From Lachnospiraceae bacterium (GTDB taxonomy: Bacteria > Bacillota > Clostridia > Lachnospirales > Lachnospiraceae), in contig JAJQHQ010000092.1 in the NCBI GenBank assembly GCA_021199655.1, forward strand, positions 1 to 64,000: a stretch of DNA of 64,000 nucleotides, given 5' to 3'. The notes below the pieces were generated by a model. The model saw nothing but the letters and a program-made list of their open reading frames with translations, had not been told where the DNA came from and ran no database searches. Made by a program: the position numbers and the translations under genes. Position 1 is the stretch's first letter. Each line of letters opens with the position of its first letter. Below are positions 11,234-31,898 of the stretch, one piece after another.

Positions 11234-12700
11234 ATGAGTACACTGAATCTGACACTTCTGACTGACCTGTATGAACTGACGATGATGCAGGGCTATTTCG
11301 AGTCCGGTTCCAATGAAACTGTCATCTTCGACGCTTTTTATCGAAACAATCCCTGCGGCAACGGCTACGCAATCGCAGCCGGGCTTGATCAGGTCATTGA
11401 TTATATCCGGAATCTGCACTTTTCCCCAGAGGATATTGACTATCTGCGGGGACTCGGCATTTTCCACGAGCCGTTTCTGGATTATCTCAAAGACTTCCAC
11501 TTTGAAGGCGACATCTACGCGATTCCGGAAGGATCCGTCATGTTCCCGCACGAACCGATGCTGAAGGTCATCGCGCCGATCATGCAGGCGCAGCTGGTGG
11601 AGACCGCGGTGCTGACCATTTTGAATCATCAGAGCCTGATCGCGACCAAGTCCGCGCGTGTGGTGCAGGCAGCGCGCGGCGACGGCATCATGGAGTTTGG
11701 CCTTCGAAGAGCACAGGGACCCGATGCGGGTGTGTACGGTGCTCGGGCCGCAATGATCGCAGGCTGCGTCGGCACTTCGAATGTGCTTGCCGGGCAGATG
11801 TTTGACGTGCCGGTCAAGGGTACGCACGCACACAGCTGGATCATGAGCTTCCCGGATGAATATACGGCATTTAAAAAATACTCTGAGTTGTATCCGGATG
11901 CCTGCCTGCTTTTAGTTGACACCTACGATACCCTCCGTTCGGGTGTGCCGAACGCCATCCGCGTATTCCGAGAAATGCGTGAGGCGGGTATGGAACTGAA
12001 GGGGTACGGCATCCGTCTGGACAGCGGTGATCTTGCCTATATGTCCAAGAAAGCGCGCGCGATGCTGGATGAGGCAGGATTTACGGACGCAATTATTTCC
12101 GCTTCCAGCGATCTTGACGAATACCTGATCGACAGCTTAAAGACACAGGGCGCGGCGATCACCTCCTGGGGTGTAGGTACCAACATGATCACCTCAAAGG
12201 ACTGCCCCGCGTTCGGCGGTGTCTACAAGCTGGCGGCTGTGTTTGATGAAAACAGTGGTGAATTCATCCCGAAGATCAAGCTTTCAGAAAATACGGATAA
12301 GATCACCAATCCGGGCAACAAAAAGATTCTGCGCATTTATGATAAGGCGACCGGCAAGATTCGCGCCGATCTGATCTGTCTGGTCGATGAGGAATACAAT
12401 CCGGAACAGGATCTGCTCATCTTTGACCCGATCGAGACCTGGAAAAAGACAAAAATCAAGGCCGACACCTATGAAATCCGTGAACTGCTTGTACCGGTCT
12501 TCCTGAAAGGAGAATGTGTCTATACCTCTCCGGCTGTCATGGATATCCGGGATTATTGTGAGCAGGAAAAGAATACCCTCTGGCCGGAAACACGGCGTCT
12601 GACGAATCCGCATGACGTCTATGTCGACCTCTCTGACAAGCTTTATGAGATTAAGAGAGGACTGCTGAATCAGATGGGAAAAGCGGCGCTGCAGAATTAA
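11234..12700 (+). CDS. pncB: Nicotinate phosphoribosyltransferase
   Basis: LTLLTDLYELTMMQGYFESG...GTHAHSWIMSFPDEYTAFKKY...GIRLDSGDLAYMSKKAR; RBS aaaggag. Confidence 0.92.
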   Translation: MSTLNLTLLTDLYELTMMQGYFESGSNETVIFDAFYRNNPCGNGYAIAAGLDQVIDYIRNLHFSPEDIDYLRGLGIFHEPFLDYLKDFHFEGDIYAIPEGSVMFPHEPMLKVIAPIMQAQLVETAVLTILNHQSLIATKSARVVQAARGDGIMEFGLRRAQGPDAGVYGARAAMIAGCVGTSNVLAGQMFDVPVKGTHAHSWIMSFPDEYTAFKKYSELYPDACLLLVDTYDTLRSGVPNAIRVFREMREAGMELKGYGIRLDSGDLAYMSKKARAMLDEAGFTDAIISASSDLDEYLIDSLKTQGAAITSWGVGTNMITSKDCPAFGGVYKLAAVFDENSGEFIPKIKLSENTDKITNPGNKKILRIYDKATGKIRADLICLVDEEYNPEQDLLIFDPIETWKKTKIKADTYEIRELLVPVFLKGECVYTSPAVMDIRDYCEQEKNTLWPETRRLTNPHDVYVDLSDKLYEIKRGLLNQMGKAALQN

Positions 12701-15334: not shown

Positions 15335-15432
15335 ATGAAGGCAACAGGAATTGTAAGAAGAATCGATGATCTCGGCCGCGTCGTCATACCAAAGGAAATC
15401 CGGCGCACCCTGCGCATACGGGAAAGCGACCC
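15335..15432 (+). pseudogene. spoVT: 5' part of interrupted spoVT (AbrB-type DNA-binding domain)
   Basis: MKATGIVRRIDDLGRVVIPKEIRRTLRIRESDP then diverges at GCGACCC; the ORF continues to 15511 with element-encoded HKTLTPFEKYCFAMQQFYERCIGK. Confidence 0.93.
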
Positions 15433-15454
15433 ATTACATAAAACATTGACACCG
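15426..15454 (+). other. attL: core GCGACCC and attP right arm AACATTGACACCG
   Basis: Arm 15442-15454 is the exact reverse complement of 31418-31430. Confidence 0.85.
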
Positions 15455-15653
15455 TTTGAAAAGTATTGTTTTGCCATGCAGCAGTTCTATGAGCGGTGTA
15501 TCGGCAAGTAAGTAAGAGCCATGAACGGCAAAAGCGTTATAAATGGGCGATACATACCATTAAACAAGATAATTTCTCTCTATCTGAATGCGATAATACC
15601 ATATTATTTCGGATAGCAAAACCAAAACTAAATAGGAACAGCAGACCAAAGGT

Positions 15654-15724: not shown

Positions 15725-18088
15725 ATGTTAGAACAAAACTCTTTTACTTTATACTTCAATGACGGTTGCCAAAATATGAATAACACGCTTTATCCTCATA
15801 AAATTGTCGTTCAATCAAAACAAGACCTTTTGTCTGTCGTAGCACATGACCATGTAGCCGCTCAATTTGAACATAACCGCAGGAAGATAGACAATTTTAT
15901 TCAATCCGACTGTGTTATGATGGATATTGATAATACACACAGCGATAATCCAGAAGACTGGATTTCGCCTAAAGACATTCAAAATCAATTTCCTGATGTA
16001 CCGTTTTATGTATCATTTTCCAGAAATAATATGAAAGAGAAAAACGGAAAGGCACCACGACCGAAGTTTCATGTATACTTCAAAATCAGAATATGCCTGG
16101 ATAGTGGAAAATATGCAGACTTCAAACGAATTTTATGTGATTATTTTCCGTATTTCGACAAAAATGCTACCGATGCGGCTCGCTTTTTCTATGGTGTGGA
16201 AACTCCGCTTGTTGCGTATTATGATGGAGATACGCTTTTATCAGACTTCATGCAAAATGTTTATGCAGAAAATCAGCAAGCAGAACTTGCTGATTGTTCC
16301 GAAAAAGAAGAAAGTACGATACCAGAGGGGACACGGAACTCCACATTGTTTAAAAAAGCTATTCGCTTTTTGACACGATGGGGAAATGATGATGAAAAAG
16401 CATATCAGTCTTATCAGACTGAATCAAAGAAATGTTCCCCGCCCTTAGATGAAAAAGAACTTATTTCTATCTGGAAAAGCGCACAGAAATGCTATATAGA
16501 AAATATCAAAAATTTGCCCGATTATGTTCCACCACAACGATTTAACAAGCCACAGTCCTTAAAATCTCTTAAACCATCAGATTATACGGATATAGGTCAG
16601 ACAAAAGTCTTTTGTCATGAATATGGGAAGATACTTCGTTATTCCAGAATAACAGGATTTATAGTTTTTGATAAAAAGAAATGGGTGGAAGATGAACTTC
16701 GGGCGCAGAAAATGGCACAGGATTTAACGGATCGTCAACTAACAGCCGCCTGTGCAGAATTAAGAAAAGCTAATGAAAATGAAAATACAGCCGCATTATC
16801 CAAAGATGAACGGTCAAAGAAAGCAAGCACTACAGATGCACAAAACGCAAAGAAATATCGAAGTTACGTCTTAGGAAGACGAGATTCACGGCGCATTACA
16901 GCCACTTTGAGGGAGGCACAGCCAATGCTTGAACTGAATCCAGAACAGTTAGACAAAGACCCATTCCTGTTAAATACGCCAGATGGAACGATTGATTTGC
17001 GAACAGGAGAACTACACCCACATAATCCAAGTGATTGCTGTACCAAAATTACACGGGTCAGTATCTCGGATAACGGTATGGACTTGTTTCAAGCCTTTCT
17101 GGAAACAATAACGTGCAGTAATAAAGAACTGGAAAATTATTTACAGTATATTTCTGGTATGTGTCTTCTTGGAAAAGTATATTGTGAAAATCTGATAATC
17201 GCATATGGAACAGGAAAGAATGGGAAAAGTACGTTCTTTAATCTTCTCTCTAAAGTTATGGGGAGTTATGCCGGCTATCTGTCATCCGAAGTCTTAATTT
17301 CAGATGGGTGGCGTTCAAAGAATAAAAGTCCTGAATATGCGGAATTAAGGGGGAAGCGCATTGTAGTTGTTTCAGAATTAGATGAAGATAGAAATCTGGA
17401 TACGGCACTTGTGAAAAAGATATGCTCAACAGACCAGATTCAGGCTGAAAAGAAGTATAAAGACCCGTTTTCTTTTGAACCATCTCATACAACCATATTA
17501 TGCACAAATCATTTACCCCGTGTAAAAACCAGAGATAACGGAACATGGCGAAGATTGAAAGTTGTGCCTTTTCATGCGGTGATTGAAGATGAATCGGAAG
17601 TCAGGAATTACACGGATTACCTGCTTGAACACGCAGGCGGAGCTGTCCTGAAATGGATGGTCGAGGGAGCATTGAAATTTATACAGGCAGATTATAAACT
17701 GGAAGAACCGCAAGTTGTCCGTGAAGCAATCTTTGAATATCAAAGCGATAATGACTGGCTAACAAATTTTATCTCTGAATGCTGTGAAAAAGGGCAAGAA
17801 CTGGCTGAAAAGTCGGGAGACTTATACACCCGTTATCGGGAATTTCAAAAAAGTATCGGAGAATCAGCAGTAACATCATCTTCTTTTAAAAACGCAGTAG
17901 AAGAAGCAGGATTTAAGACGAAAAAAACAAATAAAGGCAGAGTTGTATATGGATTGAAACTTAAAGCCAACGGTTCAGAATTACCAGAATATGAGTATAA
18001 CGCTCCGCTGTTCAGACCGCTATCTCATAAAGTGACAGACAGTGACAGTGATACAGAAAACTTTACAGAGGATTTTGTTAAATTCTAA
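15725..18088 (+). CDS. Phage/plasmid (P4-type) primase-helicase
   Basis: Primase-like N-terminus (FYVSFSRNNMKEKNGKAPRPKFHVYF) and helicase LIIAYGTGKNGKSTFFNLLSKVMGSYAGYLSSEVLI Walker A; RBS aaggagg. Confidence 0.88.
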   Translation: MLEQNSFTLYFNDGCQNMNNTLYPHKIVVQSKQDLLSVVAHDHVAAQFEHNRRKIDNFIQSDCVMMDIDNTHSDNPEDWISPKDIQNQFPDVPFYVSFSRNNMKEKNGKAPRPKFHVYFKIRICLDSGKYADFKRILCDYFPYFDKNATDAARFFYGVETPLVAYYDGDTLLSDFMQNVYAENQQAELADCSEKEESTIPEGTRNSTLFKKAIRFLTRWGNDDEKAYQSYQTESKKCSPPLDEKELISIWKSAQKCYIENIKNLPDYVPPQRFNKPQSLKSLKPSDYTDIGQTKVFCHEYGKILRYSRITGFIVFDKKKWVEDELRAQKMAQDLTDRQLTAACAELRKANENENTAALSKDERSKKASTTDAQNAKKYRSYVLGRRDSRRITATLREAQPMLELNPEQLDKDPFLLNTPDGTIDLRTGELHPHNPSDCCTKITRVSISDNGMDLFQAFLETITCSNKELENYLQYISGMCLLGKVYCENLIIAYGTGKNGKSTFFNLLSKVMGSYAGYLSSEVLISDGWRSKNKSPEYAELRGKRIVVVSELDEDRNLDTALVKKICSTDQIQAEKKYKDPFSFEPSHTTILCTNHLPRVKTRDNGTWRRLKVVPFHAVIEDESEVRNYTDYLLEHAGGAVLKWMVEGALKFIQADYKLEEPQVVREAIFEYQSDNDWLTNFISECCEKGQELAEKSGDLYTRYREFQKSIGESAVTSSSFKNAVEEAGFKTKKTNKGRVVYGLKLKANGSELPEYEYNAPLFRPLSHKVTDSDSDTENFTEDFVKF

Positions 18089-23981: not shown

Positions 23982-24599
23982 ATGATTTACGGTTATGCCA
24001 GATGCTCAACGAATGAAGAATTGCAGGATATCAATCGACAGGTTCGAGAACTAAAGCAACAGGGCGCAACAGATGAAACTATCTACTTAGAATACGAAAG
24101 CGGAACAAAAGTAAATCGCACTGAATTAAACAGGCTTCTGGACGTGGTAAAAACAGGTGATACAATTCTTGCAACAGAAGTCAGCCGTATTACACGCAGT
24201 ACAAAACAATTATGCGATATTGTTGAATTGGCAAAAGAGCGGAAACTAAAACTGGTATTAGGGACTTTCATTGTAGACTGTACGAAAGAGTTAGACCCAA
24301 TGACAGAGGGTATGCTAAAAATGATGGGCGTGTTTGCAGAACTGGAACGTAATATGATAAGCCAGAGGGTCAAAAGCGGAATGAAAAATGCAAAAGCGAA
24401 AGGAAAGGTTGTTGGAAGACCTGCAACTACAGCAGATAATATTCCTCCGATTTTTTATAGATATTATCCCGAATATAAGAGCGGAAAATACAGCAAAAAA
24501 GAGTTGTCAAGGCTCTGCTCATTATCTTATCCTACAATCTACAAGTATTTAAGCATCGTAGAGGGAGAAAACACATTAAAAGGAGCGGCTCAAAAATGA
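23982..24599 (+). CDS. Small serine recombinase (resolvase/invertase family)
   Basis: MIYGYARCSTNEELQDINRQVRELKQQGA...MMGVFAELERNMISQRVKSGM and C-terminal HTH. Confidence 0.9.
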   Translation: MIYGYARCSTNEELQDINRQVRELKQQGATDETIYLEYESGTKVNRTELNRLLDVVKTGDTILATEVSRITRSTKQLCDIVELAKERKLKLVLGTFIVDCTKELDPMTEGMLKMMGVFAELERNMISQRVKSGMKNAKAKGKVVGRPATTADNIPPIFYRYYPEYKSGKYSKKELSRLCSLSYPTIYKYLSIVEGENTLKGAAQK

Positions 24600-29061: not shown

Positions 29062-29286
29062 ATCGGCAATTCAAGCATGATTATTTTTCATCACTTTTGA
29101 ACCTTGACAACTCAATATGTATGTAATCGCACATAATCTTTTTCGCTGATTCTTGTCTTTTAACAAGTGGGCTTATGACAAGCATCTTTCAAGTTAGTAA
29201 TTGAATACCTGAAAGCGTTACTTGTATATAAGTTTCAATTAAGTGGAAGAATATGGAATAAACGGGAGGTAACGTCAGAATTGTAT

Positions 29287-29529
29287 ATGGAAATCTCTGA
29301 AAAGCAAAAGACGGTCTATTATTGGCTGTCGAAAGAAGAGAAAGAGGATTCCGAATTACGTTGCTGTCTGCGTTCCCAATATTATGAATGGGAACAAAAG
29401 GGATATTCAGTATGTGTATTCCTTTCTGGAAACAGCAACCTTGTAGAAACAACAAAGGATTTGCTTGTCCATAATAAAAAAGTTCTTGCAACAAAAAATT
29501 TGGAATGTAGTCAAACGGCGGTATCCTAA
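29287..29529 (+). CDS. Small hypothetical protein upstream of integrase
   Basis: 80-aa ORF, RBS gggaggt. Confidence 0.45.
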   Translation: MEISEKQKTVYYWLSKEEKEDSELRCCLRSQYYEWEQKGYSVCVFLSGNSNLVETTKDLLVHNKKVLATKNLECSQTAVS

Positions 29530-29672
29530 AACTCTCTACTATGGCAGAAATACTGCCATAGGTACATACAAACGATGATTTCCAAAACATACCATTGGAT
29601 ACAAGAAAATCGGCATGTTACAATGTTGTTTGTAACATGCCAAGCAAAAAAAATAACATTGGAGGAAAAATA

Positions 29673-31898
29673 ATGAGTGAACCAAGAATTGCAGCTTATA
29701 TGCGTATTTCTGTCGATATAGAAAAAGACAGAGATAACACATCTATCGAAAACCAAAGGAAAATTATCACTGCTTATGTTAAACAAAATTTTCCTAATTC
29801 TGAAGTTGACTATTACGAAGACCGAGACAGAAGCGGATATACGTTTGGACAAAGAGAACAGTATCAACAAATGCGTCCGTTATTGATGAACGGATATTAT
29901 AACATTCTCATTGTAAAAGATTTATCCCGTTTTTCTCGTCGTAATAGTCGTGGACTTGTAGAATTAGAGGATTTGCGTGATGCAGGTGTCCGCATAATTG
30001 CTATTGGAGACGGTGTGGATTATCCAACCTATGATGACTGGAATAATATTCAGGTACGTTTTCTTTTGAACGAAATGCCTGTCACAGACGCATCCAAGAA
30101 GGTAAAAAAGGTTATCGAAATGAGACAGAAAAACGGTAACTGGATTTGTAGTGTGCCTTACGGATATTATATGGTAGATACCAAAAACATGACATTTGAA
30201 GTAGACGAAAAGTCAGCCGAAGTCGTTCGTGAAATTTTCCGCTTGTATAATAGTGGGTGGGGATACAAAAAAATAGCAAATCATCTGACAGATGAAAAAA
30301 TCCCCACACCCCGCATGGTGGAAAAAGAACGGAAAGAACATGAGATGGAGTTACTAAAAATCAAACGCGATATCAAGATAAAGGCAAGACCTGAATGGTC
30401 AGTTGCTACAATTTACGGGATTCTTTCTAATGATTTTTATATTGGTACTCTTCGTGAACGAAAATATGTACGTCCTATAGTTCATGGCAATGATAAAAAG
30501 TTAGATGAAAATGAAAATATTCAATTTTTAAACCACCATACGCCTATCGTAGACGAACGTGAATTTTTGAAAGCCAAAGAACAACGGGAAAAAAGAACCA
30601 GGTCAAATTACCGTGGTGTTAAAAAATATGATACAAATTATTCTGGCTTCTTATTTTGCGGAGACTGCGGCAGTCCAATGTTTTCTATGAGCCGCCCTGA
30701 TTTGGCGCCTGCTTATATCTGTGGCACATACCATAAAAGAGGAAAAAAAGGCTGTACCTCACATCATACTCGCATTGATACACTGGATATGATGTTAAAA
30801 AACTATGTGGAACGTATTATGAAAATCTCGGATTCAATGATTGCTGAACTTGAAAAAGCAATTAAAGACGAACCAAATAAGATGAAAAAATCAGCTGATA
30901 CGTTGGCAAGTTTAGAGGCAGACTTGGAAAGAGCAAGAGAGGAATTTAAGGCTACTCAAAAACAAAAAATTCGTGCCATGATGAAAGCGGATGGAGAAAA
31001 CGCTTCTATCATAGAGGAAACATATGAGGAAATGGAACAAGAACTGCTCAATAAAATTGAGGGTATCGAAAAACAAATAACCCTTACTACAGACCGCAGA
31101 AATCAAGTTGTTGAAGTAAACCGTATAACAAAAACTGCACTGGATATTTTTCAGGATATTCTTGATAAGAAAACACTTGATAAAGGCGATTTAAGCATAA
31201 TCGTTGATAAGATAACCGTGTATGAAAGCAAAAAGAATTTCATAGAAATAGAACTTAAACCAGATATTCAAATGCTGTTAGAATCAGGAACACTTACCAA
31301 CGAAACTCTTGAAGAAGCAGGATACAGAGACAAAACCGTAAATTTTAATTGGGACATCGGGAGTAACTCATCAGCCACAATAGTCCAGAGTGTAAGGAAT
31401 CAAAAGGACAAGGCTTTCGGTGTCAATGTTATTTGTGGTGGCGACCCGCTGGAGATCTTTACAGACCGCGAAGGTGAAATCATTTTAAAAAAATATTCTC
31501 CGATCGGAGAACTCGGAAGCTTTGCGAAAGAATACGCCGAAGCGCTCGCTTCTGCTTCCGGACACAGCGTCTGCATCACCGACCGTGATCAGGTCATTGC
31601 GGCGGCCGGCGGTATCCGCAAGGACAGCATCGGCGCCCCTGTCACCGGCCAGCTCGAAGAAGTCATGAGCGGACGTGAATACGTCAACACGGACCAGAAT
31701 TCCAAAAAGCACGTTAAGATTACCAGTGAGGACGCCGGAGATTCCCTCCCGCAAATCATCAGCCCCATACTCTGTGAGGGCGACGTGATCGGTTCCGTCA
31801 TCCTGCGCGGGCGTGACGGCAGCCGCCGGATGGGTGAAGCTGAACAGGTACTGGCCAAATGTGCAGCCGGTTTTATGGGGCGCCAGATGGAACAATAA
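29673..31898 (+). CDS. Large serine recombinase, fused in frame to SpoVT C-terminal domain in the integrated state
   Basis: RIAAYMRISVDIEKDRDNTSIENQRKII (resolvase), recombinase domain, Zn ribbon (CGDCGSPMFSM...CGTYHKRGKKGCTSHHTR), coiled coil; residues after GGD are SpoVT PLEIFTDREGEIILKKYSPIGEL...; RBS ggagg. Confidence 0.92.
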   Translation: MSEPRIAAYMRISVDIEKDRDNTSIENQRKIITAYVKQNFPNSEVDYYEDRDRSGYTFGQREQYQQMRPLLMNGYYNILIVKDLSRFSRRNSRGLVELEDLRDAGVRIIAIGDGVDYPTYDDWNNIQVRFLLNEMPVTDASKKVKKVIEMRQKNGNWICSVPYGYYMVDTKNMTFEVDEKSAEVVREIFRLYNSGWGYKKIANHLTDEKIPTPRMVEKERKEHEMELLKIKRDIKIKARPEWSVATIYGILSNDFYIGTLRERKYVRPIVHGNDKKLDENENIQFLNHHTPIVDEREFLKAKEQREKRTRSNYRGVKKYDTNYSGFLFCGDCGSPMFSMSRPDLAPAYICGTYHKRGKKGCTSHHTRIDTLDMMLKNYVERIMKISDSMIAELEKAIKDEPNKMKKSADTLASLEADLERAREEFKATQKQKIRAMMKADGENASIIEETYEEMEQELLNKIEGIEKQITLTTDRRNQVVEVNRITKTALDIFQDILDKKTLDKGDLSIIVDKITVYESKKNFIEIELKPDIQMLLESGTLTNETLEEAGYRDKTVNFNWDIGSNSSATIVQSVRNQKDKAFGVNVICGGDPLEIFTDREGEIILKKYSPIGELGSFAKEYAEALASASGHSVCITDRDQVIAAAGGIRKDSIGAPVTGQLEEVMSGREYVNTDQNSKKHVKITSEDAGDSLPQIISPILCEGDVIGSVILRGRDGSRRMGEAEQVLAKCAAGFMGRQMEQ
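31418..31447 (+). other. attR: attP left arm CGGTGTCAATGTT and core GCGACCC
   Basis: Arm 31418-31430 exact reverse complement of 15442-15454. Confidence 0.85.
31441..31898 (+). pseudogene. spoVT: 3' part of interrupted spoVT (GAF-like sensor domain)
   Basis: DPLEIFTDREGEIILKKYSPIGELGSFAKEYAEALASASGHSVCITDRDQVIAAAGG...GEAEQVLAKCAAGFMGRQMEQ. Confidence 0.93.

Follow-up and report, generated by a model that had tools for sequence, protein, structure and literature searches.

A putative mobile element splits spoVT, carries attP inside its serine recombinase gene and is predicted to exchange C-termini with the host regulator

Sporulation genes interrupted by intervening elements include sigK, which carries skin in B. 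subtilis and C. difficile, spsM, which carries SPbeta, and gerE, which carries gin; these elements are excised during sporulation by serine recombinases acting with accessory factors (PMC5595907, PMC5025042, PMC4191935). The element described here was found in a window of 64,000 nucleotides (the whole stretch analysed) from a Lachnospiraceae bacterium. Present in gut-type bacteria, it resembles the known elements in having a serine recombinase, a short core, inverted-repeat att sites and a precise excision that would restore the reading frame. Unlike them, it targets spoVT, the gene of a forespore regulator, its attP is located inside the recombinase ORF so that the recombinase itself is chimeric, its insertions are patchy and apparently recent, and its excision during sporulation is a prediction. 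An attP within a coding gene, so placed that an element protein has its C-terminus altered on integration, is also found in mycobacteriophage BPs (PMC4557955). In BPs it is the repressor that is shortened and stabilised, whereas here a serine recombinase would swap its C-terminus with a domain of a host regulator. In enzyme kind the recombinase resembles TnpX of Tn4451, which is among its PDB sequence matches, and TndX of Tn5397, which is among its weak plasmid matches. TndX targets carry a central GA (PMC4430133). Unlike TndX, which has relaxed targets in B. subtilis, the spoVT family uses one spoVT codon, and no fusion to a host domain has been described for TndX or TnpX in the literature examined. 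The SSV-type integrases of archaeal viruses are tyrosine recombinases with attP inside the integrase gene, which is partitioned on integration. The present recombinase shares this position of attP; unlike the SSV-type gene it is not broken apart, the catalytic and DNA-binding domains being kept in one ORF and only the tail exchanged. Among the open-access papers searched, none was found that describes an insertion into spoVT or a recombinase bearing a SpoVT domain. The layout is real and widespread, is unreported in that literature and is distinguished by the location of attP inside the recombinase gene.

The features of the locus are the following.

15335 to 15511, plus strand: SpoVT-N::tail chimera of 58 aa at the left junction; the same layout is seen at the left end of other elements.
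15426 to 15432, plus strand: core GCGACCC at attL, with the central GA at 15428-15429 as symmetry centre.
15428 to 15511, plus strand: 27-codon tail (DPLHKTLTPFEKYCFAMQQFYERCIGK) and stop of the circle-form recombinase, with coding constraint beyond the arm.
15429 to 15454, plus strand: right half of attP, element side, ending in AACATTGACACCG and forming an inverted repeat with the left half.
15725 to 18088, plus strand: P4-type primase/helicase (D5_N, PriCT_1), the first large gene within the element.
29281 to 29529, plus strand: 82-aa ORF directly upstream of the recombinase, a candidate recombination directionality factor by position and size.
29673 to 31898, plus strand: LSR::SpoVT_C chimera of 741 aa, with resolvase, recombinase, zinc ribbon, coiled coil, linker and SpoVT part.
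31418 to 31443, plus strand: left half of attP, element side, beginning with GTGTCAATGTT and encoding VNVI in frame; conserved across elements.
31441 to 31447, plus strand: core GCGACCC at attR, with the central GA at 31443-31444, identified by shared core and symmetry.
31443 to 31898, plus strand: host-derived 3' part of spoVT, codon 32 to stop, with the SpoVT_C GAF-like domain, identified by PF15714 and congener identity.

The recombinase ORF extends from an ATG at 29673, with GGAGG upstream, to a TAA at 31898. Its product has the make-up of a large serine recombinase (LSR), with Pfam domains Resolvase (residues 6-157), Recombinase (180-308) and Zn_ribbon_recom (324-378), a coiled coil and the catalytic serine, S13, which is present in at least 90% of the alignment rows. 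The ORF then enters the SpoVT C-terminal domain in frame (SpoVT_C, PF15714, residues 613-740, E=5.9e-43). The left ORF (ATG at 15335, TAA at 15511) joins SpoVT residues 1-33 to the tail and matches NCBIfam spore_V_T (E=5.8e-18); a 75-aa version in the ORF list starts at an in-frame ATG further upstream. The halves of spoVT are 16 kb apart, the element itself being about 16 kb, and the element interrupting this sporulation gene has a recombinase gene of its own. No second spoVT was found in the host genome, where the single-copy gene is the split one. Inside the element a second, small serine recombinase of the resolvase/invertase type (205 aa) is located at 23982-24599. Two palindromes upstream of the LSR gene are possible operators (29539-29561, CTATGGCAG-AAATA-CTGCCATAG; 29612-29641, GGCATGTTACAA..TTGTAACATGCC), and no strict sigma-G promoter motif was found upstream of the two chimeras of the window.

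The core common to both junctions is only 7 bp long and, taken alone, is weak. The junction call is strong because it combines rejoining of the flanks, inverted symmetry and recurrence in many other genomes. When the outer flanks were rejoined by script, an uninterrupted SpoVT of 182 aa was obtained. The rejoined spoVT was 96.5% identical in nucleotide sequence, over 741 nt and across the core, to the uninterrupted spoVT of a congener, and the remaining congener loci fetched also aligned through the junction. Precise excision is thus predicted to restore the reading frame to that of the empty site. Rejoining of the inner ends gave a recombinase of 617 aa that ends in the 27-residue tail, together with an attP-like inverted repeat. 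The first-pass annotation had proposed a 741-aa integrated form, a circular form of about 617 aa and a tail of 27 residues, and exactly these lengths were recovered; both rejoined frames are open, as expected from its suggestion that integration makes two chimeras and excision two proper proteins. Two of its descriptions needed amendment. The integrated form does carry the SpoVT GAF-like domain at its end, but the SpoVT part starts within the AbrB-type DNA-binding domain and corresponds to residues 29-178 of PDB 2w1t. The tail is attached to a truncated SpoVT DNA-binding domain, as stated, of which 33 of the approximately 50 AbrB-type residues are kept.

The axis of attP falls between the G and the A of GAC, codon 32 of SpoVT. 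In the window the inverted repeat (CGGTGTCAATGTT...AACATTGACACCG) has 20/26 pairs, compared with 11/26 at the next best axis. Twelve elements could be rebuilt from both ends, and in every one of them attP was centred on the same GA, with 17-21 of 26 pairs at this axis against 10-13 at the next; 17/26 pairs at a fixed centre have a chance probability of 1.6e-5. An inverted repeat around a central dinucleotide, as required of an LSR site, was therefore present in 12/12. Because the symmetry axis is the GA of codon 32 in all 12 elements, attP is placed inside the recombinase ORF, where its core had been located by the first-pass annotation, and the product of this attP-bearing gene is predicted to differ between states (617 and 741 aa). 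The rebuilt site, as circle or tandem, was absent from the 392 genomes searched with up to 2 mismatches and had no exact match in IMG/VR.

Chimeras were searched for at family, order and class level, and the junction VNVI..GDPLE was confirmed by reading the loci. An LSR fused in frame to SpoVT_C was found at 24 loci in at least eight families, always at the same spoVT codon (the window, G332, G171, G106, the contig-truncated G299, G581, G573, G658, G627, G642, G711, G510, G566, G633, G717, G665, the 5' truncated G539, G448, G818, G786, G860, G935, MT836658 and the IMG/VR locus L133). The survey proposed earlier, for recombinases that end in a SpoVT domain while an AbrB fragment is encoded at another place, was thus strongly positive, and translation would run through the core at 24/24 loci, none of which has a stop before it. 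An intact spoVT was found in none of the 14 LSR-bearing order-level genomes checked; SpoVT-N with the tail was present in most of them, 12-78 kb away where the two ends share a contig. In one family spoVT was full or nearly full-length in 41 of 58 genomes and split in seven, both states occurring within genera. A scan of IMG/VR with the window recombinase gave no match; the attP arm patterns added the chimeras L132 and L133, next to two matches that were unrelated. Plasmid and phage collections contained mostly weak LSR relatives, together with the chimera on the gut-virome contig MT836658 and a further gut-virome contig, MT839487, that ends before the core.

Individual loci showed further features. 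The 13-kb element of G171 (L050) contains, by eye, an ABC-transporter-like pair, a two-component system and acetyltransferase-like genes, and no phage structural genes were recognised in it. In G332 two SpoVT-N::tail ends lie 2.4 kb apart (L053:6900-9700), each followed by a parA-like start, which suggests a tandem or remnant element. G299 was considered as a genome in mixed excised and integrated states and was rejected as such; the SpoVT sequence of the chimera, on a contig of 2.5 kb, does not match the intact spoVT of G299, so this contig is probably foreign.

At the nucleotide level the recombinases of G642 and G711 are 97% identical while their SpoVT_C parts are 74% identical; for G510 and G566 the corresponding values are 72% and 88%. 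In trees the window LSR pairs with that of G633 (support 94/95), whose host belongs to another family, and the SpoVT_C of G633 groups with its own host family. The histories of LSR and SpoVT_C thus disagree, which points to independent insertions, and the element appears to move between hosts, always entering at the same codon. From these insertions we infer that the recombinase is active on its att sites. LSRs that are 97% identical in hosts with SpoVT_C of 74% identity indicate recent movement, and each insertion is probably recent. An intact SpoVT_C frame therefore does not prove selection in the split state. A fixed, skin-like element was also considered and was rejected, given the patchy distribution of the insertions and the discordance between the histories of LSR and host. 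Nor was purifying selection acting on the split SpoVT_C accepted as proof of excision: in close pairs dS was lower for the LSR than for SpoVT_C, so most of the SpoVT_C divergence predates insertion. It is highly improbable that the locus is an artefact of assembly or annotation, or that the element has decayed and lost its mobility. Most of the genomes are assembled as contigs, in several cases incompletely, and no excised form was found; against this, the same-codon junction recurs at 24 loci, including the single-contig genome G717 and gut-virome contigs, the LSR frame is intact with its active-site region, and movement has been recent. We consider it likely that the element, its site and the domain-exchange anatomy are as described and that excision restores spoVT, a judgement that does not extend to any regulatory role.

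Confidence in the AlphaFold model of the 741-aa form is low to moderate (pLDDT 66, pTM 0.30). Besides the catalytic and zinc-ribbon parts, the model contains coiled-coil helices at 387-438 and 441-498, a small unit of mixed alpha/beta structure and, at 613-740, a C-terminal domain that stands apart; residues 537-612, a linker that includes the attP-encoded residues, have pLDDT <50. In this model SpoVT_C looks like a tethered module and not a part of the catalytic fold. The very low confidence of 537-612, as for a disordered linker, would suit a passive arrangement, in which the overlap of attP with the 3' end of the LSR gene serves compactness, neither C-terminus is needed and recombination is unaffected by the fusion. 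The attP arms themselves encode protein, the left arm VNVI and the right arm the TL[TS] of the tail, and the coincidence of these codons with the arms favours the same arrangement. So do the LSR relatives in G720 and G1118 (45-48% identity), which end before the core is reached. A sister LSR family, whose insertion site is GGxGGxATGCC in the gene of an ABC substrate-binding protein, favours it too: the fusion there is in frame in one genome, G002 (L136), and out of frame in four, G010 (L055), G018 (L056), G019 (L057) and G044 (L058). From the stops before the core and the mostly out-of-frame sister family it follows that a fused C-terminus is not a general requirement. G720 (L083, L102, L081) is a natural exception, with a split spoVT whose C-terminal part is unfused to the recombinase. 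The passive arrangement is opposed by the conserved residues RN..K about 12 positions before the attP arm, by the in-frame fusion at 24/24 loci, though partly through common descent, and by a codon-phase constraint in the tail beyond the arm. On balance we would give it an even chance.

The tails conform to TL[TS]..E+.CFAM..LE+R.G or to a version of it in which the insert is longer, and a simple moment calculation suggests that they could fold as amphipathic helices. The constraint was measured on five ungapped tails over codons 9-25 after the core, past the arm of about 26 bp, with statistics that ignore kinship. The in-frame BLOSUM value was 1.54 per site as against 0.17 and 0.23 in the other frames, and it was reached in 0/2000 column shuffles (p=0.0005). 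Conservation at the three codon positions was 0.54, 0.59 and 0.36, third positions being lowest. In close pairs of stand-alone copies dN/dS of the tails was below 1, though not strongly. Judging from these patterns, the tail beyond the attP arm is evolving as protein-coding DNA.

This constraint, together with the architecture, is also what a state-dependent recombinase would show, in which the tail favours attP x attB and SpoVT_C restrains the enzyme, multimerises it or gates it by a signal, tying excision to sporulation. In its favour, the SpoVT_C GAF-like domain is full-length in the loci read to their end, and the BPs repressor offers a precedent in which attP within a regulator gene alters both C-terminus and activity (PMC4557955). 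Known direction control of LSRs, however, is exerted by separate directionality factors (PMC5025042). The conserved ORF of about 80 aa beside the LSR, whose relatives lie upstream of the LSR in most elements tested, is a candidate for such a factor. A state-dependent recombinase is possible, though we lean against it. We hold it to be unlikely that the C-terminus is a reversible module whose swap by itself determines direction or timing, with the element departing from spoVT when the forespore programme requires it and able to return later.

The tail constraint is not assignable to the circle-form LSR alone, because stand-alone SpoVT-N::tail genes exist. Such genes, of 58-64 aa with conserved flanking DNA, occur in three copies in G708 (L116:3546-3881 and 11826-12086 on the minus strand, L117:2414-2668), in two in G728 (L113, L114) and in G726 (L115); G332 has two SpoVT-N::tail copies. 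No LSR of the same family was detected in G708, G726 or G728, which are drafts 67-84% complete, and an intact spoVT is also present in G726 and G728. These stand-alone genes, the pair in G332 and the lack of a detectable family LSR could indicate that the SpoVT-N::tail peptide is the selected product, for example as a small regulator expressed in the forespore or a recombinase partner, with the LSR swap a by-product. Only 33 residues of the AbrB-type domain are left in it, however, the close stand-alone tails have dN/dS not far below 1 and the genomes concerned are incomplete drafts; we regard this explanation as quite improbable.

The host genome contains sigG (428 bits, just below the curated cut-off of 457) and a sigF-like gene. 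In C. difficile spoVT is controlled by sigF and sigG, and a mutant forms no heat-resistant spores (PMC3789822). Since the present host lacks an intact spoVT and loss of the C. difficile gene abolishes heat-resistant spores, the integrated element should, by analogy, block spore maturation unless it leaves. Excision from spoVT is also to be expected by analogy with the sigK, spsM and gerE elements. We propose a mobile element of about 16 kb with a TnpX/TndX-like LSR, for which spoVT codon 32, at the GA within GAC, would act as attB, with attP carried in the last approximately 35 codons of the LSR gene. As attP is read through in the phase of spoVT, recombination would exchange the coding 3' ends. 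On the circle, the recombinase would be 617 aa long and end in a tail that is short, conserved and amphipathic. The integrated state would encode a 741-aa recombinase that bears most of SpoVT on a flexible linker and a 58-aa SpoVT-N::tail peptide. If excised precisely, the element would leave an intact spoVT behind and regain its integration-form recombinase; such excision may serve sporulation, as that of skin, SPbeta and gin does, the restored SpoVT presumably being functional.

With this element spoVT joins the sporulation genes split by removable elements, in Clostridia-type bacteria where spores matter, and isolates with a split spoVT are predictable from the 24 loci. Even if the overlap is passive, these loci provide natural att sites and natural C-terminal fusions of apparently mobile recombinases. 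The design is widespread, and in it recombinase and host regulator would trade domains at every integration. How serine recombinases control direction has long been asked and is of value for engineering; should the trade matter functionally, such control could be built into the enzyme by recombination itself.
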